Source of the DNA: a virus
DNA: 34,671 nucleotides
Strand: one strand, 5' to 3'
Virus record (IMG/VR): IMGVR_UViG_3300042992_000859
Coordinates: 1-34,671 of that record
The stretch's first letter is position 1, and every line of letters starts with the position of its first letter. The position numbers and the translations under genes are program-made. Under the pieces are notes generated by a model. The model did not search any database. It worked only from the letters and a program-made list of their open reading frames with translations, and was not told where the DNA came from. Positions 1 through 24,151 of this stretch are shown here, piece by piece.

Positions 1-731
1 TCGGCCCTATTGACCTCCAGATTCCCTGCCTGTTCAACGGAACGACCCTTTGCAATCAAGACGACCTGACGGAGACGAACGACCCTTACAATATCAACAA
101 GGACTCAACGCCGAAGTGGGCGAACATGGCTAACTCTAGCACCTTGAGCGGGATGGATAGCTTGGTCAATGCGAACGATGATTGGTATGAAGAGTTCGTT
201 GGCCCGGCGGATTGGACTTCCGCAAACTACGACTACAAGCTTCCCGGAAGCTGTGCGGCTCAGGACGACGGCAAGACTTGCGAGCATCCGTTCCAGTTCC
301 ATCCGTTCACGGTTGTGGTTGACCCACAGAATCCTTCGATGACGCTTTACCGGGCGAATGTCTGCTCCGGCATGGTCAACAACCTGGTTCCCTACGACGA
401 GCCATCTTCTGGTCAGAAGCTCCCGGCGACCATCGACTTCCTCATCAACGCGGACACCTACATCTATCTGCGACTTGGAACAGAGGCTTACGCCTCCAAC
501 AATCCTGTCTTCCCGGTGACGGACGAAACGAATGTCTACTACCCGACCATCGTCCAGTCCCAGACGGAGCTGACGGACACCGACGAGTACTGCTACATCC
601 TCATGGGCGTGGCGCGGAACATCGGCGACCCCGACACCTTCACGATTGACCAGACCATCTCCGGCTCTGTCTGGGCCGAGCGCCTGAAGATTGGCACGGA
701 TACTGCCCGTTATTACTGGGCGGGAGTCTAA
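1..731 (+). CDS. tail protein, 3' part (5' end outside window)
   Basis: The frame is open from base 3 to the TAA at 729-731, so the start lies upstream of the window. The visible 242 residues are rich in Asp, Thr, Asn and aromatic residues with no membrane segment, as in beta-rich phage tail or baseplate proteins. No family was recognised. The first in-frame ATG (126) is internal because the coding pattern continues upstream of it. The gene probably continues the one cut at the right end (33863-34671): both read Ile-Asp through a shared 9-bp word in the same frame, which would give a protein of about 507 residues. The stop overlaps the next ATG (TAATG). Confidence 0.75.
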   Translation, partial: GPIDLQIPCLFNGTTLCNQDDLTETNDPYNINKDSTPKWANMANSSTLSGMDSLVNANDDWYEEFVGPADWTSANYDYKLPGSCAAQDDGKTCEHPFQFHPFTVVVDPQNPSMTLYRANVCSGMVNNLVPYDEPSSGQKLPATIDFLINADTYIYLRLGTEAYASNNPVFPVTDETNVYYPTIVQSQTELTDTDEYCYILMGVARNIGDPDTFTIDQTISGSVWAERLKIGTDTARYYWAGV

Positions 732-1213
732 TGGCTACCCGCATCGGCGGGCCGAAGGTAGGTGGGTTCAACCCATCAGGGCCGACTTGGGGTTCGATGC
801 GTTCGCCGCTTGTGCTTAACGCATTCACTTGGAACGCATCATATACAGAATTCTCAAGGCAATGGCCTTTGAGCGTAGCAAGTCCTCCTAAGTTCTTCAA
901 ATGGGATAGCGGCTCCCTATTCCGTCAAGATACATACGGCCCACCTCCATACTATACCATTTCCAATAACAGTCAGGAAGTCCCAGAACCCCCTATCATT
1001 TATACCGGGTGGAGCATCGGAATACAGTACCCAAACAAGACAGTCGACAACCATGACTTCCTTCAGCTCGTAGGCGAGGCATTGGATACGGACATCGGGA
1101 CGTTCATCATTACGGCAGACGCTCACGACCCCAACCAAGGAGGTCAGACCCTTTCTGACCAGCCTCCAGGCGGGACTGAGATTTATGACATCGGGAAGCT
1201 GACAGGGTTCTGA
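731..1213 (+). CDS. hypothetical tail-associated protein
   Basis: A 160-aa protein starting one base inside the previous stop (TAATG), which indicates translational coupling. It is rich in Pro, Gly, Tyr and Trp, with no signal peptide, membrane segment or recognised motif. Its position between a tail gene and the collagen-like fibre makes a tail-tip or fibre-attachment role plausible, but that rests on context alone. The DNA here is a little more A+T-rich than its neighbours. The stop is two bases before the TTGACTCCCGCGTAG element at 1216. Confidence 0.7.
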   Translation: MATRIGGPKVGGFNPSGPTWGSMRSPLVLNAFTWNASYTEFSRQWPLSVASPPKFFKWDSGSLFRQDTYGPPPYYTISNNSQEVPEPPIIYTGWSIGIQYPNKTVDNHDFLQLVGEALDTDIGTFIITADAHDPNQGGQTLSDQPPGGTEIYDIGKLTGF

Positions 1214-1215
1214 CT

Positions 1216-1230
1216 TTGACTCCCGCGTAG
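1216..1230 (+). promoter_or_regulatory. late element TTGACTCCCGCGTAG, copy 1
   Basis: An exact 15-nt copy of a motif present five times, always in front of structural genes (also at 24263, 27552, 29088, 30787). Four nucleotides (GGTC) separate it from the ATG at 1235. The TTGAC part resembles a -35 box, but 17 nt downstream is inside the coding sequence with no -10 box. An activator site, unusual promoter, RNA-processing site or translational enhancer are all possible. Confidence 0.6.
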
Positions 1231-1234
1231 GGTC

Positions 1235-1561
1235 ATGGCGGCACCGACAATCATTTGGAAGCGCGGGCAGACTTTCGTGGCATCCGGCCCTTACGTCCCA
1301 GGCGCGGGCGACCCGGTCAACCTAGCCGGGGTCACCATCGAAAGCGAGGTCATGGACTTCTCCAGGGTTCGCCGACCCCTCGCCGTCACCATCGGCCAAG
1401 ACAATCTGACTGTGACGCTCAGGGCGGAAGCTTCTGATACGGCGGAATGGACGGTCGGGACTGCCGCCATCGACCTCCGTTGCGTAAAGGACGGAATCGT
1501 TTTCGCCACTACGACTGTCCGCTTCGTCGTCGACCAAGAAATCACTCTCCCGAATGGCTAA
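1235..1561 (+). CDS. small tail/fibre-associated protein, beta-sandwich-like
   Basis: A 108-aa protein with alternating hydrophobic and polar strands and conserved-looking Trp residues (Trp8, Trp73). It resembles in style the short Ig-like or baseplate-upper-like proteins often encoded just before phage fibres, but no family is assigned. Its end overlaps the fibre start by 8 nt, so it is probably made at a level matched to the fibre. The late 15-nt element lies immediately upstream. Function is inferred from position only. Confidence 0.7.
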   Translation: MAAPTIIWKRGQTFVASGPYVPGAGDPVNLAGVTIESEVMDFSRVRRPLAVTIGQDNLTVTLRAEASDTAEWTVGTAAIDLRCVKDGIVFATTTVRFVVDQEITLPNG

Positions 1562-3560
1562 CATCGAACTTACCCTGACCCCGGCTTCTCCTACCGGGTC
1601 AATGGTCTTCACCCTGGGCGCACCTGGCGCTCAAGGCCCGGCCGGAACCATCGCCGTCGGGACTGTCACGGCGAGCGCACCTGGCGCACCCGCGGTCATC
1701 GTCAATGTCGGAACGCCTACCGCGGCTATCCTTGACTTCACCATCCCGCGCGGGGAGCAGGGTACCCAGGGAATCCAAGGCATCCAGGGCATCCAGGGAA
1801 TCCAAGGAATCCAAGGAATCCCCGGCGACAAGGGAGACAAGGGCGACCAAGGCATCCCGGGAACTTCCGGTGTCGCCTTCGCTACGGCTCCGCTGTCCTA
1901 CGACTCTGGCACCCAGACTGTCAGCATCAGCGGCAACCCGACGTTCGACAGCGTACTAGTCGGCGGAGGACTCGGTGGCCTGAACCAGACTCAGGTCTTT
2001 GTCGGCGACATCGCTGGAAGCAACTACCTCGATTTGGCTGACGGATTGGTTATGCAAGTTGGAGCTGGAATCACTTTCCCTAACTCCACAGTTCAGACAA
2101 CCGCGTTCCCCGGCTTCGCTGGCTACGCGCTAGAGTCTTGGGTGACTGCCGGGTTCGCCGTCAAGTCCGCAGGACAGCCAGTCTCTGGGACTGTCGGCCA
2201 GGTTCTAACCAAGAACAGCGGAACGAACTACGACTCGTCGTGGGCTACGCTCATCCCGGGCGACCGCTACCTGACGACATCGACGACGAGCCTTCAAATC
2301 AATAACCAGCCCAAGACGCTAACGATTGGGACAGGGTTGTCGTATACTTCTCAGCAGGACGTTGTCATCGCCTACGATGCTAACCACCACATGCATGCCA
2401 GGGTGCTGACCTACAACTCCGCCACCGGAGTGATGACTGTTGATGTCCTGAGCCACTCTGGAACAGGAACATTCGCCCTCTGGACTGTCAATGTTGGAGG
2501 AGCTGTTCCGGCTCAGTCCGTTGCCTGGGGTTCTATCACCGGGACGCTCGGCAATCAGACTGACCTGGCTACGGCACTCAACGCGAAGCTTTCGACTGTT
2601 GATGCGGCCGCAACTTACTATCCGCTGACCAACCCGACCGGGTTCATCACTAGCGCGGCGCTGACTCCGTATCTGACGACGGCGACCGCGGCCTCGACTT
2701 ACTTCACCATCGCCTCTGCCGCCGGGAAAGCGAACCTATCCGGGGCGACGTTCACGGGCAAGGTCAACTTGGCAACGATTTCGGCATCAAGCCCGAGCGT
2801 GAACCTCGGAGGGCAATGCGACTCTGCACCGACTTCGGCAACGAACGGAGACCTGTGGATTTCAAATGCGGCCTCGCCTAAACTGACCTATCGGACTAAC
2901 GGGATTAACTACAACTTGGCCGTCCTGAATCAGTTCAACACCTTTACCGGGCAGATGGTGATTAATACCACTTCTTCTGGTACCTCCGCCCTGCGCGTCA
3001 CTCAGCTCGGAACCGCCAACGCCATCGAGGTCGAGGACAGCACCAGCCCTGACTCGACTCGCTTCGTCGTCGATGCGAACGGCAAGGTCGGCATCGGCGT
3101 TGCCCCGGATGCTTCCGCCGCGCTCAAGGTCGATACGAACGGCATCATGTTCGGCGATGGGACGACGCAGACGACAGCCGCAGTTCCGCCGACTCCTCCG
3201 ACTCCTCCAAGCCCAATCATCGCTTTTGCGAACACGATTGCGTCTCAGATTACATCTCTGACTTGGAATCTTAACAGCGACGGAATGACGGCAAACATTC
3301 AATTTGTTTTCAACCTGAACAACGCATCCGTAATCGAACGGATGAGGACAAGTAGTGGTCAAAATGCTTACATCAGTTGCACCTTTAATAATGGATTTGG
3401 TTACACGCAAACTGTCTGGTGTCTAATCTCCTCCCCTTTGACTTCTGTCACGACGACCGATTTTAGTGAATCATTCCAATACTCAGTCGGACTGAACGGA
3501 ACTGTAAGGGTCAAACTTGGAAACGAACAGGGCTACGACTTTTACGACATCACTCTATGA
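1554..3560 (+). CDS. collagen-like tail fibre protein
   Basis: A 668-aa likely trimeric fibre. After a short beta-rich head (about residues 1-60), a Gly-X-Y tract runs from about residue 67 to 108 (GEQGTQGIQ, repeated GIQ, then GIPGDKGDKGDQGIPG). Collagen-like triplets of this kind form triple-helical shafts in phage fibres. The remainder is Ser/Thr/Gly-rich beta structure with fibre-type segments: an ITFPNSTVQTTAFPG stretch near 179, GATFTGKVNL near 396, and GTTQTTAAVP near 536, followed by a Pro-rich hinge (PPTPPTPPSP). The last 110 residues are probably a globular receptor-binding tip. No lyase or glycosidase signature was seen. ATGA overlap with the next gene. Confidence 0.88.
   Translation: MANIELTLTPASPTGSMVFTLGAPGAQGPAGTIAVGTVTASAPGAPAVIVNVGTPTAAILDFTIPRGEQGTQGIQGIQGIQGIQGIQGIPGDKGDKGDQGIPGTSGVAFATAPLSYDSGTQTVSISGNPTFDSVLVGGGLGGLNQTQVFVGDIAGSNYLDLADGLVMQVGAGITFPNSTVQTTAFPGFAGYALESWVTAGFAVKSAGQPVSGTVGQVLTKNSGTNYDSSWATLIPGDRYLTTSTTSLQINNQPKTLTIGTGLSYTSQQDVVIAYDANHHMHARVLTYNSATGVMTVDVLSHSGTGTFALWTVNVGGAVPAQSVAWGSITGTLGNQTDLATALNAKLSTVDAAATYYPLTNPTGFITSAALTPYLTTATAASTYFTIASAAGKANLSGATFTGKVNLATISASSPSVNLGGQCDSAPTSATNGDLWISNAASPKLTYRTNGINYNLAVLNQFNTFTGQMVINTTSSGTSALRVTQLGTANAIEVEDSTSPDSTRFVVDANGKVGIGVAPDASAALKVDTNGIMFGDGTTQTTAAVPPTPPTPPSPIIAFANTIASQITSLTWNLNSDGMTANIQFVFNLNNASVIERMRTSSGQNAYISCTFNNGFGYTQTVWCLISSPLTSVTTTDFSESFQYSVGLNGTVRVKLGNEQGYDFYDITL
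1761..1823 (+). repeat. 9-bp tandem repeats encoding Gly-Ile-Gln triplets
   Basis: Seven consecutive 9-bp units of the form GGNATCCAR (first unit GGTACCCAG, last GGAATCCCC) encode GTQ, five GIQ and GIP. Near-identical units without a frame break invite slippage in multiples of 9 bp, changing shaft length without losing frame. Confidence 0.9.
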
Positions 3561-5407: not shown

Positions 5408-5466
5408 ATTTATGATAGAAAAGTCATTGTCGCCAGGCGGATGGTGACCCAAGGTTGTGTTCGTTC
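5408..5466 (+). promoter_or_regulatory. early promoter-like cassette P1
   Basis: ATTTAT (5408-5413), 13 nt, TTGTC (5427-5431), then 29 nt to TCGTTC (5461-5466) and the CCAAACCA leader before ATG 5486. The same ordered elements occur at 6826, 9112 and 17611. TTGTC resembles a -35 hexamer; a candidate -10 at 17-18 nt is CAAGGT, which is far from TATAAT, so host sigma preference or an activator must be unusual. The A+T-rich ATTTAT could act as an UP element. Confidence 0.55.
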
Positions 5467-5485
5467 AACCAAACCACCAATACAA

Positions 5486-5770
5486 ATGACCGCCATCAAA
5501 ACCATCACCTCCAAAGAACTCAAGGCCGAGGGCCGAAAGCTCCGCCGGAAGGCTCACATCATCAAGTCCCACCCCTGCGTCCGCGACATCTCCGACGAGC
5601 GCGCCACGGAGAACGGCTTCTGGATTTACCTTCACGACGGATGGGTCTGCCCGAACTCCGAGGGCAACGCCATCAGCGAGGACACCATCAAGGAAGCCGT
5701 CAAGTGCCTCAAGGGTATCACCTACGACCCCTCCACGCTCGACGGCGAGCCTGTCATCGCCCTGGTCTAA
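5486..5770 (+). CDS. hypothetical early protein
   Basis: A 94-aa protein, first gene of the early block driven from P1. It starts with a basic helix (KELKAEGRKLRRKAHIIK) followed by an alpha/beta part containing GFWIYLHDGWVCPNSEGNAI. No family recognised. The basic N-terminus could contact nucleic acid; this is a guess. The start is the ATG after the leader ACCAAACCACC..ACAAATGACC; an in-frame ATG at 5441 lies inside the promoter cassette and is rejected. Confidence 0.75.
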   Translation: MTAIKTITSKELKAEGRKLRRKAHIIKSHPCVRDISDERATENGFWIYLHDGWVCPNSEGNAISEDTIKEAVKCLKGITYDPSTLDGEPVIALV

Positions 5771-7277: not shown

Positions 7278-7625
7278 ATGCCCAAGAAGAAATCCAAAGA
7301 CCTGGCGGCGCTCGTTGCCGACCTCTATCCCCACAAGGAAATCAACCTCCCGCAAGAGGCGATGGTCGCCTACTGCGAACACCTGGGAATCACCGAGCCG
7401 GGATTGAGCGACCTGGAGGACGCGTCCGACTGCTACTACGGAAGCCATCGTAGCGACAAGGACTTCGCTTATGAGCTTTCGGATGCTATCGACCTGTTCG
7501 GCGACTTGCCCAAGGGAGGTCGGCACACTCACCACCTGGAGCTTTACTTCGACTGGGACAAGTACGCTCGCGACCTGATGTTCGACCACTTTGAGTCCTC
7601 CGGATACTACTTCCGCAACCAATGA
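7278..7625 (+). CDS. ArdA-like antirestriction protein, short form
   Basis: A 115-aa acidic protein. The segment with DLEDASDCYYGSHRSDKDFA, then ELSDAIDLFGDLP, and HLELYFDWDKYARDLMFD corresponds to the pattern of the ArdA C-terminal domain (an aromatic/acidic loop with 'edfA', then Y-[FI]-D-[WY]-x-x-[FY]-A-R-D-L). ArdA proteins are DNA mimics that dimerise and block type I restriction enzymes. Full ArdA is about 165 aa, so this is a shorter version lacking much of the N-terminal domain. Early location suits defence against restriction. Assignment is by motif recall and is moderately sure. Confidence 0.6.
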   Translation: MPKKKSKDLAALVADLYPHKEINLPQEAMVAYCEHLGITEPGLSDLEDASDCYYGSHRSDKDFAYELSDAIDLFGDLPKGGRHTHHLELYFDWDKYARDLMFDHFESSGYYFRNQ

Positions 7626-7897
7626 GTCACCAGGCGATTATCAACCGGGCGATGAAGGAGCTGTTTTACATCAACGAGCGCATCATGTGCGGCGACATCT
7701 GTTCCAACAAGACCGCGCTCCCCCGGTGCAGAAAGATGTGTGACGGATGGGCCGAGGAGCTGTCGTGGGCCGGGTGCGCTGGAATCCGCCTAGAGCCTTA
7801 CATGGCCGCGGGCGGATGGGTCGGCCTGAGCTACTCCTACTCCCCGCCAGGCGCTGAAGAAGTGTCCAGCTCCAATGTCCCGCGCCGACTCCCTTGA
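7622..7897 (+). CDS. Cys-rich hypothetical protein
   Basis: A 91-aa protein overlapping the ArdA-like gene by 4 nt (ATGA). It has five Cys within residues 22-55 (MCGDICSNK, PRCRKMCDGW, AGCAGI), spaced in a way that could bind zinc, followed by a Gly/Tyr-rich beta segment. No family recognised. It is translationally coupled to the antirestriction-like gene and to the next small gene. Confidence 0.65.
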   Translation: MSHQAIINRAMKELFYINERIMCGDICSNKTALPRCRKMCDGWAEELSWAGCAGIRLEPYMAAGGWVGLSYSYSPPGAEEVSSSNVPRRLP

Positions 7898-7899
7898 AA

Positions 7900-8163
7900 A
7901 TGAAAGACCCCACGATTGAACAGGTTTACGAAGCGCTCATAGACAACGGATACGGAGGGGACGAACTTGTCACAGACCGGAGCATAGCCATCTACTACTT
8001 CGCCGAAGCCTGGTACGACGGACAATTCTCGAACCTGTACCGGGTGATGTGCCAGGTCGGGTACAATGGAAAAGGGATGGTACTTGAAAGTGAGAGCTAC
8101 ATGACTCAAGAAATCTATGACTTCTTGGAGACTCACTTTTACCCTGACCATCGAAACCAATGA
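7900..8163 (+). CDS. hypothetical early protein
   Basis: An 87-aa acidic, Tyr-rich protein (MKDPTIEQVYEALIDNGYGGDE...FLETHFYPDHRNQ). No family recognised. ATG 7900 lies two bases after the previous stop; a TTG at 7894 overlapping that stop is an alternative. Its acidity and position next to the ArdA-like gene might suggest another DNA mimic, but that is conjecture. ATGA overlap with the kinase gene. Confidence 0.65.
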   Translation: MKDPTIEQVYEALIDNGYGGDELVTDRSIAIYYFAEAWYDGQFSNLYRVMCQVGYNGKGMVLESESYMTQEIYDFLETHFYPDHRNQ

Positions 8164-8690
8164 CCACGACCCCGACCATCGTCGCCCTCGGCGGCGAGCC
8201 AGCTTCAGGCAAGACGACCATCTTCAAACTCCTTCGGGCTAGGTTTGAGCGCGCCATCTATCCATTCCAGTACGGACTCGTCCGCGGGATGTCAGACCGG
8301 GACATGAAGGTTCTATTCATCGGCGTGTATGATAACTCGACCTGGGAGGGGTGCGACAAGTTATCGATGTCTGTCCAGCCTGACTTTGAAAAGATGGTCA
8401 AGTCGCTCACAGGAAAAGACTGCGTCATCTACATCGAGGGTGACCGACTGTTCAATCCTTCCTTGTTCCGGCGCTTTCAAATCCAGTCGGTGGTCATCCA
8501 CGCGTCGCCGGGTACATTGTCCCATCGACACAAGCTCCGAGCTGACAGCCAGGGTGAGTCGTTCCTCAAAGCCAAGCGAACGAAGCTTCGACGCATGGTG
8601 GATGAGTTCAAGATTACAACCATGCCCAACGAGACACCCGAAGACCAGAAACTCATAGTGGACTGGCTTCACTCCAAGGCGAAGCGATGA
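8160..8690 (+). CDS. P-loop kinase, possible DNA-base (5-hydroxymethyluracil) kinase
   Basis: A 176-aa protein with a Walker A loop GEPASGKT at residues 12-19, and IYIEGDRLFNPSLF near residue 90 carrying an acidic strand end. A central VYDNSTWEGCDKLSMSVQP segment (about 57-75) and an R/K-rich lid (SHRHKLRADSQGESFLKAKRTKLRR) follow. From memory, the GEPAxGKT, (V)YDxSxFxGxDxLSMxVxP and EGDRLF combination resembles phage kinases linked with thymine hypermodification, which phosphorylate 5-hydroxymethyluracil in DNA. A nucleotide or small-molecule kinase remains possible. The TET/JBP oxygenase at 20906 could supply the hydroxymethyl base. Four-base overlaps on both sides. Confidence 0.6.
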   Translation: MTTTPTIVALGGEPASGKTTIFKLLRARFERAIYPFQYGLVRGMSDRDMKVLFIGVYDNSTWEGCDKLSMSVQPDFEKMVKSLTGKDCVIYIEGDRLFNPSLFRRFQIQSVVIHASPGTLSHRHKLRADSQGESFLKAKRTKLRRMVDEFKITTMPNETPEDQKLIVDWLHSKAKR

Positions 8691-9175
8691 AACTCCCAAT
8701 CCTTTTGATGTTCGCATGCGCTTCGGCGCTGGGATACACCGACGCTCAAATCCTCAAAGCGATTGGGATGGTCGAGTCCAGAATGAACCGGGGAGCGATT
8801 GGTGACGCGGGCCTGGCGCTCGGCGCGTATCAGATGCACCGGGCCGCGTGGATTGACGCTAACGCGCAACTTGTCAGCGAGGGTCGCCGCGCTCACCCCC
8901 GAAGCTTATGGCGCGTCGCCAGGGTTCAGGACGAGGTCGCGCTGGCATACCTCCGGGTCATCAGGGGTCGCTTCCACCGGGCCGGACTTGGCGAACCGAC
9001 CCCGGCCATGCTTGCGGCCTGTTGGAACAAAGGATTCTCCGGGGCGATGAAAGCGCCTTCATCCGCCAATCGGTACGTTTCATTGGTCGAAACCGAACTC
9101 CAGAAACTTTCATTTATTTCCTTGTCCCTGGCCCGAACCCGGCCCAAGGTTGTGTTCGTTCCACCAAACCAATAA
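8687..9175 (+). CDS. secreted lysozyme / lytic transglycosylase-like endolysin candidate
   Basis: A 162-aa protein. MKLPILLMFACASALG is a probable signal peptide. The mature part begins like an SLT-type lysozyme domain: AIGMVESRMNRGAIGDAG (catalytic Glu30) then GLALGAYQMHRAAW, and later LAACWNKGFSGAM in place of the usual YNAG block. It would cleave peptidoglycan in the periplasm after Sec export. Unusually it lies in the early region, about 3.3 kb from the lysis genes, and its last 20 or so codons coincide with cassette P3, so its C-terminal tail is probably non-domain sequence. The start is set by the ATGA overlap with the kinase. Confidence 0.7.
   Translation: MKLPILLMFACASALGYTDAQILKAIGMVESRMNRGAIGDAGLALGAYQMHRAAWIDANAQLVSEGRRAHPRSLWRVARVQDEVALAYLRVIRGRFHRAGLGEPTPAMLAACWNKGFSGAMKAPSSANRYVSLVETELQKLSFISLSLARTRPKVVFVPPNQ
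9112..9161 (+). promoter_or_regulatory. early promoter-like cassette P3 (inside a CDS end)
   Basis: ATTTAT (9112-9117), 4 nt, TTGTC (9122-9126), 29 nt, TCGTTC (9156-9161), then CCACCAAACCAATAAACAAATG. The CAAGGTTGTGTTCGTTC part is identical to P1. The whole cassette is translated as the tail of the upstream lysozyme-like protein, whose TAA lies in the leader. Confidence 0.55.
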
Positions 9176-9179
9176 ACAA

Positions 9180-9353
9180 ATGACCACCAACAAAATCACC
9201 TCCCTAAAATACACCGACGCTCAGCTCGCTGAAGCTTTCAAGAAAAGCGCGAACAAAGTGTTCGACAGCATGGAATCCAAATCCAAGGTTTCCGAGTCCG
9301 AGCGAAACTTCAAAATCGCTTGCGCCCTCCGAGGAGTTCGCGCCGCCAAGTAA
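9180..9353 (+). CDS. 57-aa hypothetical early protein
   Basis: A small basic helical protein (MTTNKITSLKYTDAQLAEAFKKSANK...ACALRGVRAAK) directly downstream of cassette P3, with only four bases between the upstream stop and its ATG. No family recognised; the helical, lysine-rich character would suit a small regulatory or DNA-associated protein. Confidence 0.62.
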   Translation: MTTNKITSLKYTDAQLAEAFKKSANKVFDSMESKSKVSESERNFKIACALRGVRAAK

Positions 9354-14029: not shown

Positions 14030-14620
14030 ATGAACAATGTAATCCTCATCACAGGATACGCTCGCGCCGGGAAGGACTCCCTCGCGGAGGGCATCTCCCT
14101 CGCGTCGAGCGGCCCGGTCGCTCACCTGAACTTCGCCGACGTCCTCAAGCAAGCTTGCGACTCATACATGCAGTCGCTCGGCATCGGTGGTTCGGGTGCG
14201 ACCAATACTTTCCGAAACGAATCCTTCAAGGTTCGCCATCGCGACTTCCTTGTCCACGCAGGGAAGTTCGCCAGGGCGCTGGATGAAGATGTCTTCGCCC
14301 TAGCGTTCACGCGCCAATGCCAGCTCATCGCCCGGTGCAACAATAGCATCGGACTCGGCACGACCATCGTTTGCTCTGACTGGCGCTACTTCAATGAGGT
14401 AGAGGCCATCAGCAGAACCTTGGGATGGCTTGATGATTGGTTCATTCACCATGTCATGGTTAGGACTACTGGAGTGGAAGCCGCAAACGAAGAGGAAGGT
14501 AAGTCCATAGGGCAACTGATTCGCCAAGTCTCCTTCGACCATGAATTCACTTTCCTGCCGGACTCCCGACAGCGAATCCTAAACGAAGGCAAAGACCTGG
14601 CCCGCAAGCTTGGCCTCTGA
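14030..14620 (+). CDS. deoxynucleoside monophosphate kinase-like protein
   Basis: A 196-aa P-loop kinase. Walker A ITGYARAGKDSLAEG (Gly9 to Ser17) has the GxxxxGKDS form typical of phage dNMP kinases related to T4 gp1, which convert dNMPs (including modified hydroxymethyl dNMPs in some phages) to dNDPs. TTIVCSDWRYFNEVEAI near residue 115 is the usual VISDxRFxNE-type substrate loop. It may boost nucleotide pools for replication; a role for modified nucleotides cannot be read from the sequence. Confidence 0.75.
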   Translation: MNNVILITGYARAGKDSLAEGISLASSGPVAHLNFADVLKQACDSYMQSLGIGGSGATNTFRNESFKVRHRDFLVHAGKFARALDEDVFALAFTRQCQLIARCNNSIGLGTTIVCSDWRYFNEVEAISRTLGWLDDWFIHHVMVRTTGVEAANEEEGKSIGQLIRQVSFDHEFTFLPDSRQRILNEGKDLARKLGL

Positions 14621-17393: not shown

Positions 17394-17590
17394 ATGGAAG
17401 CCAGGTTCAGCCGACTGACTCAAATGGAAGGCCCGGTTCAATGGATTCAACATGGGGAAGCCGCGTTCAGCCGACTGACTCAAACGGAAGCCGAAGCTTC
17501 AATGGATTCAACATGGGGAAGCCAGGTTCAGCCGACTGACACGAACGGAAGGCCCGGTTCAATGGATTCAGTTTACGGAATCCAGGTTTA
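17394..17590. repeat. 60-bp tandem repeats, candidate replication origin
   Basis: Three near-identical units of 60-61 bp plus a fragment. The word CCAGGTTCAG or CCGCGTTCAG recurs at 17401, 17461, 17522 and (CCAGGTTTA) 17582. Each unit contains TTCAGCCGACTGAC, GGAAG and TTCAATGGATTCA, so GGTTCA-type half-sites occur twice per unit. The 61-bp second period would shift a reading frame, so the array is not conserved as protein. Position after the helicase and before a promoter cassette suits iterons; binding protein unknown. Confidence 0.7.
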
Positions 17591-17610
17591 CCCGAAAAGC
17601 GCCGCCAAAG

Positions 17611-17667
17611 ATTTATTCAGAAAACTTCTTGTCGCGTCCCGAATCGTGACCCAGGGTTCAGTCGTTC
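17611..17667 (+). promoter_or_regulatory. early promoter-like cassette P4
   Basis: ATTTAT (17611-17616), 12 nt, TTGTC (17629-17633), 28 nt, TCGTTC (17662-17667), then CACCAAACCAAACTCCACAAATG. The GTGACCCA word before the candidate -10 is shared with P1. It lies directly after the tandem repeats, so origin firing and transcription may be linked. Confidence 0.55.
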
Positions 17668-17687
17668 CACCAAACCAAACTCCACAA

Positions 17688-18161
17688 ATGACCTCCAACG
17701 AAATCCCCTCCAGCCTCTACGAACGCGTCGCCTCCGCTTACGCTTCCTGCGGCGAGTTCAACCTCAAGTCCAACGACTACTCCGGAAACCGCGTCTCCGG
17801 CTACAAGGTCGAGCGCTCCTACGACCTGGGCCGCGAGCCTGTCGAAATCGTCCGCCTGTCCGAAAACGAATACCTCGTCATCGACCAGCCTCGCAACTTC
17901 AAGGACTACTTCGCCTGTGGCGGCTCCAACGCCTGGGGTCGTGATGGCGCGGCTACCGCCGAAAAGCTCCGCAAGTTCTACGCCTCCCATCACCTCCACG
18001 TCAAGGCCGACGGAACTATGACCCTTGAGCTTCAAACCTGGACTGGCGGTCGATTCCACCGGGATGCCGAGAAGTCCCAGAAACAGCTCGCCAAGTACGT
18101 CAAGGCTCACCTCGCCCGAAAGACTCCCCTGCCTCACCTAAACGCCATCATCCTGGCCTAA
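17688..18161 (+). CDS. hypothetical protein after the repeat array
   Basis: A 157-aa soluble protein with a basic C-terminal helix (RDAEKSQKQLAKYVKAHLAR). The middle has strands such as VEIVRLSENEYLVID and a Gly/Asn loop. No family recognised. The reading frame stays open upstream to ATG 17394 through the repeats, but the leader-associated ATG 17688 matches the other cassette-driven genes and is preferred. Confidence 0.7.
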   Translation: MTSNEIPSSLYERVASAYASCGEFNLKSNDYSGNRVSGYKVERSYDLGREPVEIVRLSENEYLVIDQPRNFKDYFACGGSNAWGRDGAATAEKLRKFYASHHLHVKADGTMTLELQTWTGGRFHRDAEKSQKQLAKYVKAHLARKTPLPHLNAIILA

Positions 18162-18432: not shown

Positions 18433-18660
18433 ATGCTCACCAAACATCCCATCACCGTCCACTACGGATGGCTTCGAAAGGCGCTCGTCCTCCCCGCCGG
18501 GACGCGCCTTGACCGGGCCACGAACATCCCCGAGCCTGGTTGCTACTGGGTTCGCTCCATCCCGCGCTCCGTACAAATGGACAAAGGACACCGGGCCGAA
18601 GCCGTAGGATGGATGATGGTCTACGGCTTCCTTATCCGCCCCGACCAGCTTGCCTCCTGA
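18433..18660 (+). CDS. hypothetical protein
   Basis: A 75-aa protein rich in Trp, Tyr and Arg (VHYGWLRKALVLPAGTRL...GCYWVRSIPRSVQ...WMMVYGFLI). Predicted small beta-barrel-like fold; no family recognised. It overlaps the next gene by one base. Confidence 0.6.
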   Translation: MLTKHPITVHYGWLRKALVLPAGTRLDRATNIPEPGCYWVRSIPRSVQMDKGHRAEAVGWMMVYGFLIRPDQLAS

Positions 18661-19124
18661 TGAATGTCTTCTTCCTCGACCGCGACCCGGCCCGCGCCGC
18701 TCAAATGATGTGCGACAAGCATGTCGTAAAGATGACGCTCGAAACCGCTCAAATCCTGTCCACCATCGTGGGCGGGCCGTACAAGCCTACCCATCAGCAC
18801 CATCCCTCCGTCCTCTGGGCCAAAGACAATACGGCCTGGGTCTGGGAGCATTTCATGGCCCTCCTTGACGAGTACACCCTCCGGTACGGCCGGACTCACA
18901 AGTGCGCGGAGGTCGCCAGCTTCATCTCTCAAAGGCTTCCAGCAGACTCCCTGCGGCCTTTCACTCCCCCTCCCCAGGTGATGCCCGAGGAGTACCACTC
19001 CAACGACCCTGTGGAGGCTTACAGGGAATATTACCGACAGGACAAGTCCCGGTTCGCTCGCTGGGAGCGCGGTCGCCCTTCCCCGGCCTGGTTTGCCCCC
19101 TCCATGTCCGCCGCCAGACCGTAA
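18660..19124 (+). CDS. conserved phage protein (DKHVVKM family)
   Basis: A 154-aa helical protein starting at ATG 18660, whose first base is the last base of the previous stop. The ordered motifs FLDRDPARAAQMMCDKHVVK, YKPTHQHHPSVLW, YTLRYGRTHK, TPPPQVMPEEYHSNDPVEAY and FARWERGRPSPAWF are those of a family I recall as widespread in cyanophages and other large phages, usually annotated hypothetical or pyrimidine-dimer-glycosylase-like. A catalytic role on DNA bases is possible, including a part in base modification, but this is not established. Conserved His, Asp, Lys and Arg suggest an enzyme. Confidence 0.65.
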   Translation: MNVFFLDRDPARAAQMMCDKHVVKMTLETAQILSTIVGGPYKPTHQHHPSVLWAKDNTAWVWEHFMALLDEYTLRYGRTHKCAEVASFISQRLPADSLRPFTPPPQVMPEEYHSNDPVEAYREYYRQDKSRFARWERGRPSPAWFAPSMSAARP

Positions 19125-20283: not shown

Positions 20284-20940
20284 ATGAGCCAGAAAATCGA
20301 AATCAAAAGCATCGCAGTCGCGGCGCTGAAACCCTATGAAAAGAACGCGCGGACGCACTCCGATGAGCAAGTCGAACAGCTCGCCAAGAGCATCCAGAAG
20401 TTTGGGTTTAATAATCCCATCCTCATCCGAGAAGATTTAACTGTCATCGCCGGGCATGGTCGCCTCGCCGCGGCCGCGAAGCTGGGACTCGTCGAGGTTC
20501 CCACCATCACGCTCTCGCACCTGACCGCTGACCAGGCGCGGGCCTATGTGCTGGCCGACAATCAACTGGCGCTCAACTCCGACTGGGACAAGGAACTGCT
20601 CAAGGAGGAACTGCTCGCCATCCAAGAAGCCGGGGAGATTGACCTGGCGCTCATCGGCTTCAACGAGAACGATTTGAAGTACCTCATCACCGATGTCGGG
20701 GACGTGGAACAGTCTTGGAACGGCAATCCGCGCATGGCGACCATCAAGGAACGCGCCGGAGCTTACGAAACTTCCATCATCCGGCAGATTGTCCTCATCT
20801 ACGGCGTGGAGGAATACAACTCCGTCATCGACGCGCTGTCTGACTACGCCGACAAGTTCGGCCTTGCCAACAACGCGGAGGTCATCAACCATCTTCTGGA
20901 ATCCAATGGCTATCAGGTCAATATCCGCGACAAATCGTAA
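20284..20940 (+). CDS. ParB/Srx-like domain protein
   Basis: A 218-aa protein with the ParB-like fold at its N-terminus: VAALKPYEKNARTHSDEQVE, LAKSIQKFGFNNPILI, and the phosphate-binding box GHGRLAAA (57-64) followed by TADQARAYVLADNQLALNSD. In phages and mobile elements this domain is usually fused or adjacent to DNA methyltransferases and other base-modifying enzymes; related CTP-binding or nuclease activity is known for the family. Here the usual C-terminal methyltransferase is absent, and the gene overlaps a TET/JBP-type dioxygenase by 35 nt. It may guide or couple modification to DNA. Confidence 0.8.
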   Translation: MSQKIEIKSIAVAALKPYEKNARTHSDEQVEQLAKSIQKFGFNNPILIREDLTVIAGHGRLAAAAKLGLVEVPTITLSHLTADQARAYVLADNQLALNSDWDKELLKEELLAIQEAGEIDLALIGFNENDLKYLITDVGDVEQSWNGNPRMATIKERAGAYETSIIRQIVLIYGVEEYNSVIDALSDYADKFGLANNAEVINHLLESNGYQVNIRDKS

Positions 20941-21727
20941 CCTCAATCCCAAGGACTTCAAGGAGCGCTCCGCCAAGCCGGAGGACTGCTCCACCTTGAT
21001 TGATGAGGATACCATCGTGACTGTCGATGGTCGAATCGTCCTTGTCTACATCGCCAAGGTAGGCGAGGACATGGGCGAGTTCGTGGAAGCCTTGAGCCGG
21101 GTGAATTACCTGAAGAGCTACCGAAGCAACGGACTCCTCAGTACCGCCCGAATCTTCGGCTACGCGCCGCGCAACGCGGTTCGTAACCATCCATGCCGCG
21201 CCGCGACCCTATCCGCTGAACAGCCTACGGAGAGCCAGGTCGTCCAGATGTTCGCCGAGGTCGCCGCGAAGTATTACCGCCAGCACAATCCAGCGATGGC
21301 GGCGGAACACGACAGGCTCACCCTTGAGAATGTCCGGCCGGAGTACCGGATGGGCAACACGATGTTCACCAGCGGAATCATCAACCACAACAATCCCCTC
21401 CGCTACCATTTCGATTCCGGCAACTACAAGAACGTCTGGTCGGCCATGTTCGCATTCAAGAAGGACATCGAGGGAGGCTACTTGGCGCTTCCGGAGCTGG
21501 ACATGTGCCTGAAATGCACCAGCGGAAGTCTTACATTGTTTGACGGACAGTCCCTCATCCACGGAGTGACTCCCATCCGCAAGCTTTCCGAGAACGCGGT
21601 TCGCTACACAGTGGTCTTCTACAGTCTTAAGCAGATGTGGAACTGTGAGTTGCCGAAGGACGAGGTGTCGCGTATCCGGCAGATGCGGGCGGAAATCGAA
21701 CTGAAGAAGCGAAACAAGAAATCCTGA
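20906..21727 (+). CDS. TET/JBP-type 2-oxoglutarate/Fe(II) DNA dioxygenase
   Basis: A 273-aa protein. The C-terminal half carries the double-stranded beta-helix signature: YHFDSGN with the HxD pair His168/Asp170, the family-typical GGYLALPELDMCLKCTSGSL (190-209), IHGVTPI with distal His219, and RYTVVFYS with Arg233 for 2-oxoglutarate. The spacing and the GG-L-LPE element match the TET/JBP family, which hydroxylates the methyl group of 5-methylcytosine or thymine in DNA. The N-terminal half (ARIFGYAPRNAVRNHPCRAA) is likely family-specific. ATG 20906 is the start that keeps the real protein; upstream ATGs in this frame are shadows of the ParB-like gene. No cytosine methyltransferase was found in the window, so thymine is a reasonable substrate guess. 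Confidence 0.8.
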   Translation: MAIRSISATNRNLNPKDFKERSAKPEDCSTLIDEDTIVTVDGRIVLVYIAKVGEDMGEFVEALSRVNYLKSYRSNGLLSTARIFGYAPRNAVRNHPCRAATLSAEQPTESQVVQMFAEVAAKYYRQHNPAMAAEHDRLTLENVRPEYRMGNTMFTSGIINHNNPLRYHFDSGNYKNVWSAMFAFKKDIEGGYLALPELDMCLKCTSGSLTLFDGQSLIHGVTPIRKLSENAVRYTVVFYSLKQMWNCELPKDEVSRIRQMRAEIELKKRNKKS

Positions 21728-22341
21728 TGGCGGTCAGTCAAAAGACGCTCGCCGAAAGGTGGGAGCTTTCGCCCGGCCGCATTTCCCAGCTAGTGTCCGA
21801 AGGGATGCCGCTGGACAGCATCGAGGAGGCAGAGAAGTGGAGGGCGCAAAGACACCTGACGACAGGCATCGCGCCGGGGGATTACAAGTTAGAACCCGGC
21901 TCACAGGAGCCAGGCGAAGGTGAGGACGCGCAGGAAGCGGAAGACAAAGCGCCGCCTACAGTCCTTGAGACATTCGACTCAATCGTTGAGCGCCAGCGCA
22001 TCCTCGTCCAGATTTCCCGCAACCAATACATCAAGGCGGTCAAGTCCGGCTCCCCTCAACAGTCCCGGCTCTACGCCTCCTACGACAAGACGGTCAACAC
22101 GCTCACGAAGTTGAAAGCGGAGTCGGACAGGCTCGCCCTGATGAACCGGGAATACATTCGCGCGTCTGATGCCAAGGAAGCGATGCGAGTCTTGGCGAGC
22201 GAGTTCGTGAACCGATTGGACAAGCTTGCGCTGGATGTCGCCGAGGCATGCAACCCTGAGAACCCTGCGAAGGCAGTCAAAGCGCTGGAAGCCTGGTCGC
22301 TCCGCGTGAGAACGGAACTCTCCAAGGATGGACAAAGTTGA
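21727..22341 (+). CDS. terminase small subunit, Nu1-like
   Basis: A 204-aa protein with an N-terminal winged HTH: VSQKTLAERWELSPGRISQL then VSEGMPLDSIEEAEKWRAQR, as in lambda Nu1-type subunits that bind the packaging site. An acidic linker (EPGEGEDAQEAEDK) leads to a long helical C-terminal region that would oligomerise and bind the large subunit. It overlaps the dioxygenase stop by one base and the large-subunit gene by 14 nt, as usual for a terminase pair. Confidence 0.82.
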   Translation: MAVSQKTLAERWELSPGRISQLVSEGMPLDSIEEAEKWRAQRHLTTGIAPGDYKLEPGSQEPGEGEDAQEAEDKAPPTVLETFDSIVERQRILVQISRNQYIKAVKSGSPQQSRLYASYDKTVNTLTKLKAESDRLALMNREYIRASDAKEAMRVLASEFVNRLDKLALDVAEACNPENPAKAVKALEAWSLRVRTELSKDGQS

Positions 22342-24151
22342 ACTCATCAAGGTCGGCCGGAATGTAATCCGCCCGGCCTACTCAGGCGACATCGTGGAAT
22401 GGCTTGAAAGCAACGTCAACGCCATCCCCGACTCCCCCATGCCTGGGCCGTTCAGGTCGGAAAGGACTCCATGGATTGCTGAAGCGCTCCGCATCGCCGC
22501 CGACCCGGAAACGCGGCTACTGACAATCCTAGCCAGCATCCAATCGGGCAAGTCCCTTCTCGCCAGGCTATTCTCCTGCTACATCATCGCGAATCAACCT
22601 GGCCCGACGATGGTTCTTCAGGCTACGGATGCCGAGGCGAAAGACTTCTCCATCCGCTACCTCCGCCCGGTCTGGAACAACTGTCCCCCGGTCAAGGACA
22701 AGTTCAAGAACGACGACATGGAGCGCTCGACGACTTCGGACTTCGACCGGATGACCATCTACTGCCGGGGCATTCACAACGAAACGAACCTCCAGCGCTT
22801 GTCGCTTCGGTATGTCATCGCGGACGAGTGCTGGATGGCTCCGCAGGGTCACTTGGCTGAAGCTTCGGCCCGCGTGACCGCGTTCGGCTGGATGGGCAAG
22901 CGAATCTTCATGTCCCAGGGAGGTCAGGACGGCCAAGAGTTCCATCAGCTCCACGAGTCCACGGACATGCGCGACTGGAACATGAGTTGCCCGGCTTGCG
23001 GCCATCTTCAGCCGTGGACCTGGGCGCAAGTGAAGTTCCCGGAGGAAGCGAAAGTGAACGACGAGTGGGACTTCTTGAAGGTCGCCCACAGAACGACCTA
23101 CGAGTGCGTTTCTTGCAAGGAACGGCTACCGGATACCAACGCGACGCGCCTGGAGGCGAACTCAAAGGGTCGGTTCGTGTCCACGAAAGCTTCAACGAAT
23201 GCCAGCTATGTCGGCCTCCACTGGAACAGCATGGCGACCATGAGCTGGGGGGAGCTGGCGGTGATGCTCATCAAAGCCAAGGAATCCATCGAGGAGTACG
23301 GCGACGAAGAGCCTTTAAGAATCTTTATCCAGAAGCGCTTGGCTGAGAAGTTCGAAGAACAGGCCGACGAAATCAAAACCGAGGCCGCGCCTGGCGACTT
23401 CGCAATGGGGTCAGATTGGGAGCAGGAGGGCGGCTTCGTCAAGGGTCGGCCGACTGTCTTCCATGCCATCACCCCGGAAATGCGGGCCGAGCCGGACTTC
23501 GTCAGGATGCGCTTCATGGGAGTGGACGTTCAGAAGCGCGGTTTCTACTGGGTCATCCGTGGATGGTCTGGGGATGGGCGCTCACGGATGGTGGACTGTG
23601 GGTACTGCTTTTCATGGTCACAGCTCATCGATACGCAAACCAAGTACCAGGTTCACCCGGCCAATGTGTTCGTGGACTCCGGCTACCAGCCCGACGAAGT
23701 CCTGCAAGCTTGCGCGGCTAACGGATGGGTAGCGACCCGCGGTGACCAGCGAAACGAGTTCGCCTGGCGCGTAAAGACCCCGGCGGGACTCAAGACAGAG
23801 CTTCGTCCGTACTCCGCGCCAGTCGTGGAGGCCGTGGGAGGGAAGCGCGTCAAGCGATTCTACTTCTCCAACCTCCGCCTGAAGGATGTGCTGGCGGCGC
23901 TCATCAAGCGCGGAAAGCACATGATTCCCCGGGATGTGTCCGAGGAGTACAAGGAGCAGATGAAGTCAGAGAAGAGAACCATCTCGACCAACGGAAAGCC
24001 ATTGTGGGAGCAGATTGCCCAGAGGGACAATCACTTCTGGGACTGCGAGGTCATCTGTATCCTCCCAGCATTGGCTTGGAGGCTGACTGGAAAAGTTGAT
24101 GATGTCATCGCCATGCCAGAGAAAGAATCCACTCCTGAGCAAGAGTCTTGA
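22328..24151 (+). CDS. terminase large subunit, GpA-like
   Basis: A 607-aa packaging motor of the lambda GpA type. Residues 1-170 hold the ATPase: adenine region RTPWIAEAL, Walker A SIQSGKS (70-76) and Walker B RYVIADE (Asp166, Glu167). A zinc knuckle follows: CPAC (221-224) and CVSC (260-263), typical for GpA. The C-terminal nuclease has MGVDVQKRGFYWVIRGW, VFVDSGYQPDEVLQ and NHFWDCEV, the expected acidic metal ligands. GpA-type terminases usually cut at a cos site and leave cohesive ends; that would predict a cos site near the small-subunit gene, but none was identified. Confidence 0.92.
   Translation: MDKVELIKVGRNVIRPAYSGDIVEWLESNVNAIPDSPMPGPFRSERTPWIAEALRIAADPETRLLTILASIQSGKSLLARLFSCYIIANQPGPTMVLQATDAEAKDFSIRYLRPVWNNCPPVKDKFKNDDMERSTTSDFDRMTIYCRGIHNETNLQRLSLRYVIADECWMAPQGHLAEASARVTAFGWMGKRIFMSQGGQDGQEFHQLHESTDMRDWNMSCPACGHLQPWTWAQVKFPEEAKVNDEWDFLKVAHRTTYECVSCKERLPDTNATRLEANSKGRFVSTKASTNASYVGLHWNSMATMSWGELAVMLIKAKESIEEYGDEEPLRIFIQKRLAEKFEEQADEIKTEAAPGDFAMGSDWEQEGGFVKGRPTVFHAITPEMRAEPDFVRMRFMGVDVQKRGFYWVIRGWSGDGRSRMVDCGYCFSWSQLIDTQTKYQVHPANVFVDSGYQPDEVLQACAANGWVATRGDQRNEFAWRVKTPAGLKTELRPYSAPVVEAVGGKRVKRFYFSNLRLKDVLAALIKRGKHMIPRDVSEEYKEQMKSEKRTISTNGKPLWEQIAQRDNHFWDCEVICILPALAWRLTGKVDDVIAMPEKESTPEQES

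Follow-up and report, generated by a model that had tools for sequence, protein, structure and literature searches.

Which base is oxidized by a phage TET/JBP dioxygenase that lies between a ParB-like gene and the terminase genes, with no cytosine methyltransferase to accompany it, and what becomes of that base afterwards? The question is raised by IMG/VR record IMGVR_UViG_3300042992_000859, a viral sequence of 34,671 bp analysed here at its full length and called the window, in which a gene for a 273-aa 2-oxoglutarate/Fe(II) dioxygenase of the TET/JBP family occupies positions 20906–21727 of the plus strand. We suggest that this enzyme, hereafter TET, would add a hydroxyl to the 5-methyl of a pyrimidine within existing DNA, that this pyrimidine would be thymine, converted to 5-hydroxymethyluracil (5hmU) after replication, and that a swappable second step, encoded in a slot about 12 kb upstream, would then decorate the hydroxymethyl group. 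Judged by the gene comparisons presented below, we consider this proposal as a whole rather probable.

The TET/JBP assignment had been made in an earlier note on this DNA from an HxD...H...R motif and a GG-L-LPE element, and motif, profile, predicted fold and synteny all agree with it. In an alignment of 20 TETs, residues H168, D170, H219 and R233 are invariant (codons starting at 21407, 21413, 21560 and 21602, with the HxD codons H168-F169-D170 covering 21407–21415, plus strand), and they correspond to the HxD...H iron ligands and the downstream R of TET/JBP enzymes. Within the GGxLxxPE element, conservation is complete at P196 and reaches at least 90% at G190, G191, L193 and E197. The protein scores 52.3 bits against PF12851, above the cut-off of 34.9, and the profile of the aligned TETs reaches the solved structures of TET2 (3.4e-6), NgTet1 (1e-5) and CMD1 (7e-4). 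An AlphaFold2 model (8-row alignment, pLDDT 79.3, pTM 0.79) has CcTet as its best Foldseek match (8.7e-13), with CcTet, CMD1, NgTET1 and TET2 as the top matches, and its VIA Z scores are 18.1 for TET2, 17.9 for NgTET1, 17.8 for CcTet and 17.3 for CMD1, the next family being ALKBH3 at 14.1. The double-stranded beta-helix is, of course, common to ALKBH3, FTO and PHD2 as well, at lower scores, and it could suggest a peptide or small-molecule hydroxylase rather than a DNA enzyme; given the PF12851 score above cut-off, the higher rank of TET2, NgTET1, CcTet and CMD1 over the other listed folds, and the DNA-modification genes found as neighbours, we hold such an enzyme to be very improbable. The product of 20906–21727 thus very probably hydroxylates a base of phage DNA, most likely thymine as far as its gene context tells. 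TET relatives were found in 101 of 50,697 phage records, and a scan of a genome collection gave a single one, on an Ignavibacteria metagenome-assembled contig (L203, 3361–4164; 40% identical; PF12851 62.9 bits).

The gene run around TET is compact and entirely on the plus strand. It begins with a ParB/Srx-type (ParB_N) protein of 218 aa at 20284–20940 (PF02195 36.1 bits, cut-off 26.3; phrog_620 1.2e-52), continues with the TET frame, which opens with an ATG at 20906, 35 nt before the end of the ParB gene, and closes with a TGA at 21725–21727, and then passes to a terminase small subunit-like (TerS-like) gene at 21727–22341, which begins within the TET stop codon (TGATG; phrog_57 1.8e-9, without a Pfam match), and to a GpA-type terminase large subunit (TerL) at 22328–24151 (PF05876 114.5 bits, PF20454 71.4 bits). 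Both the overlap of the ParB and TET genes and the terminase directly after them were therefore correctly read in the earlier note. A sister contig, G005, of 36,192 bp, is collinear with the window (93–96% identity in the main aligned stretches and 82–94% in shorter ones) and is probably a complete genome with about 35.8 kb of unique sequence, because it carries an exact 397-bp direct terminal repeat. Between the window and G005, the ratio of nonsynonymous to synonymous substitution rates (dN/dS) is 0.083 for TET, indicating purifying selection, and 0.161 for ParB; together with the relatives in phage records, these values speak against a chance pair of reading frames.

We surveyed 161 loci: the window and the 80 best relatives from each of two TET scans, which had given 202 and 257 relatives. 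They form 83 clusters at 90% identity, 47 of them window-side and 36 actinophage-like. In 154 of the 161 loci, ParB is the gene immediately before TET; in one it is not adjacent, and in six there is none on that strand. A possible TET start codon lies inside the last 60 nt of ParB in 132 of the 154 adjacent loci; since such start codons are common by chance, the overlap is weak evidence of coupling, and we do not use it as such. Among the 106 loci with 5 kb of sequence available downstream of TET, 86 have a large terminase gene in that stretch. From this synteny, rather than from any function, we infer a late, post-replicative modification of DNA due for packaging, in which the ParB-type partner would probably guide or clamp TET on the phage DNA. 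Upstream of ParB, positions 18660–19124 encode a pyrimidine dimer DNA glycosylase-like protein (PF03013, phrog_624).

The earlier note took phage TET/JBP enzymes to be usually paired with a cytosine methyltransferase and stressed that none was seen here. The absence stands, given that neither the window nor the probably complete G005 matches PF00145 (C5-methyltransferase), and that only one record, L014, matched among 18 searched. The supposed rule does not stand, because the accompaniment belongs to one branch: Melnitz-type TETs have a C5-methyltransferase nearby in 66 of 71 loci, all close relatives from one query and searched with our own profile, for which the Melnitz and L014 enzymes served as seeds (Pfam confirms it in 5/5 such records tested), but it is present in only 1/49 window-side records, in 11/48 actinophage-like records by PF00145 over the whole record, and in 1/19 P12024L-type contigs. 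The window-side figure counts L014 together with 48 records (window and G005 included), 24 of at least 30 kb and the others short fragments, among which none exceeds the PF00145 cut-off and one, G050, reaches a sub-threshold 17.5 bits. These record-level statements rest on Pfam because the two-seed profile found few, with a match within 5 kb of TET in only 4 clusters. The genomes of P12024L, MED4-184 and Cr30 have no C5-methyltransferase match, and the “methyltransferase” label in P12024L belongs to an N6/N4-type enzyme. By these searches, then, a missing methyltransferase is the rule in the ParB-linked branch and not an anomaly. As for MED4-184, its so-called “DNA methylase”, which lies two genes ahead of TET (L026, 4575–5216), scores as a ParB relative: its profile gives 97 matches, including the window ParB (8e-40), and the reverse ParB profile finds it in turn (2e-41). 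Since the phage yielded no C5-methyltransferase match, thymine would be the more probable of the two substrates considered in the earlier note.

A kinase at 8160–8690 (176 aa, plus strand), which that note does not mention, is related by profile to 5-hydroxymethyluracil-DNA kinases (HMUDKs) and would be the second step in this phage, where it is expected to phosphorylate 5hmU in DNA. A profile of 8 TET-adjacent actinophage kinases (four scanned individually pass PF18751, the others pass at genome level) matches the window open reading frame (ORF) 8148–8687 with an E of 6e-8 among 4,449 ORFs. In hhalign comparisons, the window kinase family aligns with the TET-linked kinases at 99.8% and 1.3e-30, with the HMUDKs (PF18748) of Ackermannviridae, Yuavirus and Vibrio phage K469 at 96.3% and 1.5e-9, and with control deoxynucleoside monophosphate (dNMP) kinases at 9.1% and 0.0036. 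As single sequences against the TET-linked set, the 8160 kinase reaches 97.9% and the window's other P-loop kinase, a dNMP kinase-like protein at 14030–14620 (plus strand; phrog_139 6.9e-13) that serves as a control and lies outside the proposed pathway, only 0.4%. The 8160 kinase gene, too, is under purifying selection, with a dN/dS of 0.064 between the window and G005. By tblastn, it matches 16 of the 50,697 phage records at E ≤1: six below 1e-6, two Cr30 and four Melnitz, are all TET phages; the weak matches Kharcho and Ottawa (E 0.1) are TET phages too; and the remaining eight are Vibrio phages (E 0.04–0.07). One of these, K469, has as its kinase a PF18748 HMUDK (203 bits) with a thymidylate synthase-like gene next to it, and Cr30 combines TET, a kinase of the window type and an amino acid:DNA transferase (ADDT). 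A third, transferase step need not be required, because phosphorylation of 5hmU alone raised resistance to some Type II enzymes: according to an account of a 5hmdU DNA kinase acting on phage SP8 DNA, in which 5hmdU replaces T, about 20% was phosphorylated and resistance to some Type II restriction enzymes increased (PMC7653180). The modified DNA of the window phage would, likewise, resist host nucleases.

Several genes labelled “terminase small subunit” under phrog_800 look like P-loop kinases as well (L018 1786–2382, L041 5789–6334, L043 8511–9173, L204 2483–3145 and L206 1447–2109); in these cases Nigel_3 passes PF18751, that of K469 passes PF18748, those of Maynard and Ag3 align with PF18748, and that of Cr30 aligns with the window kinase.

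The kinase occupies a slot bounded on the left by the gene at 7278–7625, followed by genes at 7622–7897 and 7894–8163, and on the right by the gene at 8687–9175, which is without a Pfam match (flanking genes on the plus strand). A scan with one of the flanking genes gave 11 loci besides the window, and in the nine contigs where the slot is bounded on both sides, it holds a kinase in four, a cupin plus a TET-associated glycosyltransferase (TAGT) in three, and another TAGT (29.0 bits, above the Pfam cut-off) in two, that is, a kinase or a glycosyltransferase in 9/9; outside these nine, G015 is cut off at the slot, and L217 and L219 are without the right flank. Because the kinase genes of the first four share about 98% identity and the members of each of the other two types score alike, the nine slots amount to about three types and should not be counted as independent events. 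TET itself is also present on G005, G015 and G017 among the 11 records, most of the others being too short to reach it. In G017, the slot is filled by a cupin (PF01050, 29.6 bits, cut-off 23.6) together with a glycosyltransferase, which is a weak TAGT by Pfam (17.5 bits, cut-off 27.5) but a clear match to our own TAGT profile (3.8e-10 with the seed profile and 7.5e-47 after iteration, searched over the ORFs of five loci). The window itself has no match to this TAGT profile in any ORF of at least 60 aa, no other glycosyltransferase family among its 31 Pfam-scanned ORFs, and, like G005, no ADDT (PF18724) match at E ≤1. In the sister contigs, a TAGT would therefore decorate the hydroxymethyl group in place of the kinase, in three of five together with a sugar-isomerase-like cupin. 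The most novel form of the proposal, in which a constant ParB-TET-terminase operon would make 5hmU without a phage methyltransferase and one exchanged distant slot would set either phospho-5hmU (by the kinase) or a base J-like glycosyl-5hmU (by a TAGT, with or without the cupin), we offer tentatively, as somewhat less than an even prospect.

In the surveyed loci of the ParB-linked branch, the neighbours of TET are often of the same decorating kinds. Within 5 kb of TET, the 83 clusters contain ParB in 83, a kinase in 26, ADDT in 18, TAGT in 24 and a C5-methyltransferase in 4, so that about 60% have a P-loop kinase, ADDT or TAGT at this distance. Profile matches within 3 kb of TET (785 kb of sequence) versus farther out (1,108 kb) number 59 vs. 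1 for the kinase, 47 vs. 0 for ADDT and 32 vs. 1 for TAGT, compared with 3 vs. 3 for the C5-methyltransferase. The TAGT seeds (L007, L012 and L008), the methyltransferase seed L014 and the window kinase seed come from the surveyed contigs themselves, and the ADDT seeds and remaining kinase seeds from outside them. Among 59 loci with none of the four enzymes and a readable next gene, TET is followed by an FkbM-like methyltransferase in 23 (e.g., L011 1546–2232 and L052 1489–2193, both tested members exceeding the PF05050 cut-off), by TerS in 11, which is the group of the window, and, in 8, 7 and 3 loci, by three families whose one tested member has no Pfam match, besides others. The FkbM-like enzyme might O-methylate the hydroxymethyl group.

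Several observations weigh against the proposal, and two further explanations have to be judged by them. The first is that TET would oxidize host-made 5-methylcytosine (5mC) to 5-hydroxymethylcytosine, which would then be phosphorylated or glycosylated at host-methylated sites only. The nearest solved relatives do include 5mC enzymes, and the Melnitz-type phages join TET, a C5-methyltransferase and, in 27/71 loci, a relative of the window kinase; the kinase is thus no proof of thymine, because its relatives also accompany TET plus C5-methyltransferase, and we rejected it as such. In the same branch as the window, L014, with a TET that aligns at 45% identity, carries a downstream C5-methyltransferase gene (order ParB-TET-second ParB-like-C5-methyltransferase, 706–3161), as the only window-side cluster of the 47 with this enzyme within 5 kb of TET. 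The third residue after the D of HxD, which presumably contacts the base, is equally unable to settle the matter: it is N in 160/161 ParB-linked TETs (one unreadable) and D in 68/71 Melnitz-type TETs (three unreadable), but it is also N in TET2, a 5mC enzyme, and in L014 with its methyltransferase, and D in 19/19 P12024L-type TETs, where a C5-methyltransferase is found in 1/19 contigs, so we discarded it as a thymine/cytosine reporter. This N/D split is reminiscent of thymidylate synthase, in which position 177 shows an Asn/Asp switch (PMC8670742). With a phage methyltransferase in only 1/49 window-side records, a 5mC pathway would have to lean on the host, and the sparse host marks would presumably protect little, and still TET has been retained along with a decorating enzyme (9/9 bounded slots); we regard the 5mC route as unlikely, although it is the stronger of the two.

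The second explanation is that a 5-hydroxymethylpyrimidine, or a more oxidized base, would serve undecorated, for instance to mark DNA for packaging, and that 8160–8690 encodes an unrelated nucleotide kinase. It draws on the terminase directly after TET here and near it in most loci, and on weaknesses of the kinase: no match to PF18751 or PF18748 in the Pfam scans, a distance of 12 kb from TET, and its absence from the slot of G017, whose TET is 77% identical and whose flanking genes are present, so that the kinase is dispensable for TET there. Against our proposal it also counts that the kinase family profile is matched in only 8/48 window-side records, that the window kinase is the lone match beyond 3 kb among the 161 loci, the other 59 lying within it, and that 31/83 clusters (24/47 window-side and 7/36 actinophage-like) have no kinase, ADDT, TAGT or C5-methyltransferase within 5 kb. 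Nevertheless, the kinase family has ties to both TET-linked and 5-hmdU-DNA kinases, its six strong matches in phage records are all TET phages, and, in the contigs seen, the slot swaps only with TET-associated glycosyltransferases; an undecorated base appears to us quite unlikely, even more so than the 5mC route. On balance, the gene content fits a two-step hypermodification for which thymine, with no methyltransferase in the phage, would be the simplest substrate.

Much of this arrangement is already known. Phage TET/JBP enzymes and their synteny with ParB and terminase genes have been described, and thymidine hypermodification involving a 5-hmU kinase has been proposed. The report on Rhodococcus phage Tonitrus states that its ParB-like, tet-like, aGPT-Pplase2 and 5-hmU DNA kinase genes may form a thymidine hypermodification system, and it names syntenic regions in Mycobacterium phages Nigel, KayaCho and Prince, Gordonia phage LittleMunchkin, Microbacterium phage Matzah and Arthrobacter phage Kharcho (PMC11955845). 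Like the window, the Tonitrus-type phages have ParB before TET (with one gene between them in Tonitrus itself) and a terminase nearby, and Tonitrus, Nigel and KayaCho are likewise without PF00145. All seven carry a PF18751 kinase, to which the window kinase, 12 kb from TET, is only distantly related, and their TETs are 25–32% identical to that of the window (Prince is outside that alignment). The ADDT of this type has no match in the window, and by Pfam it is also absent in Nigel, KayaCho, Kharcho and Matzah. Our reading agrees with the Tonitrus proposal and with the annotation of Prince gp2 as “thymidine hydroxylase”, both of which are predictions as well. In Nigel, the label “queuine tRNA-ribosyltransferase” of gp2 (L018, 776–1744; phrog_6059) looks wrong, given that its only Pfam match is Tet_JBP (26.5 bits, below the 34.9 cut-off), with no match to a tRNA-guanine transglycosylase family.

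In the case of the HMUDK systems, 5hmU is made before replication. Their genes adjoin or lie near thymidylate synthase/hydroxymethylase genes, whereas the window has TET instead and no thymidylate synthase match among its 31 Pfam-scanned ORFs. The Ackermannviridae and Yuavirus kinases of PF18748, to which the window kinase is profile-related at the 96.3% given above, we take to represent ViI/M6 chemistry. A phage cytosine pathway of C5-methyltransferase, TET and glycosyltransferase was reportedly described by Burke in 2021. The same pathway is summarised in PMC12730594, which also treats Mycobacterium phage Cooper gp2 as a TET/JBP reference and kinetoplastid base J as the product of JBP and glycosylation. 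With the cytosine pathway, our system shares a TET/JBP step followed by decoration, including TAGT-type glycosyltransferases in the sister contigs, but not a C5-methyltransferase match in the window. With base J, it would share the logic of thymine hydroxylation followed by a sugar in the TAGT-slot relatives; it differs in being phage-borne, with a ParB partner, packaging synteny, a kinase in the window's slot and a putative product. For jumbo phages, no TET/JBP is reported (PMC7824862).

The oxidizing step is of a known kind, and the swappable second step is the interesting part: a single distant slot that trades a kinase for a glycosyltransferase while the ParB-TET operon stays constant did not turn up in our literature searches, none of which was aimed at the slot genes by name. 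If true, the cassette swap would mean that phages switch the identity of their DNA, and a natural kinase-versus-glycosyltransferase swap at one locus would reveal the effect of each decoration against host nucleases. Likewise, a compact and nearly complete phage genome would be available for testing thymine oxidation with no phage methyltransferase interfering, and phage-made base J-like DNA would join the phage and kinetoplastid branches of TET/JBP. Elsewhere in the window, internal repeats offset by about 60 bp occupy 17396–17595, at the start of ORF 17394–18161, and one dispersed repeat occurs in three copies, at 5448–5512, 9121–9203 and 17628–17711.

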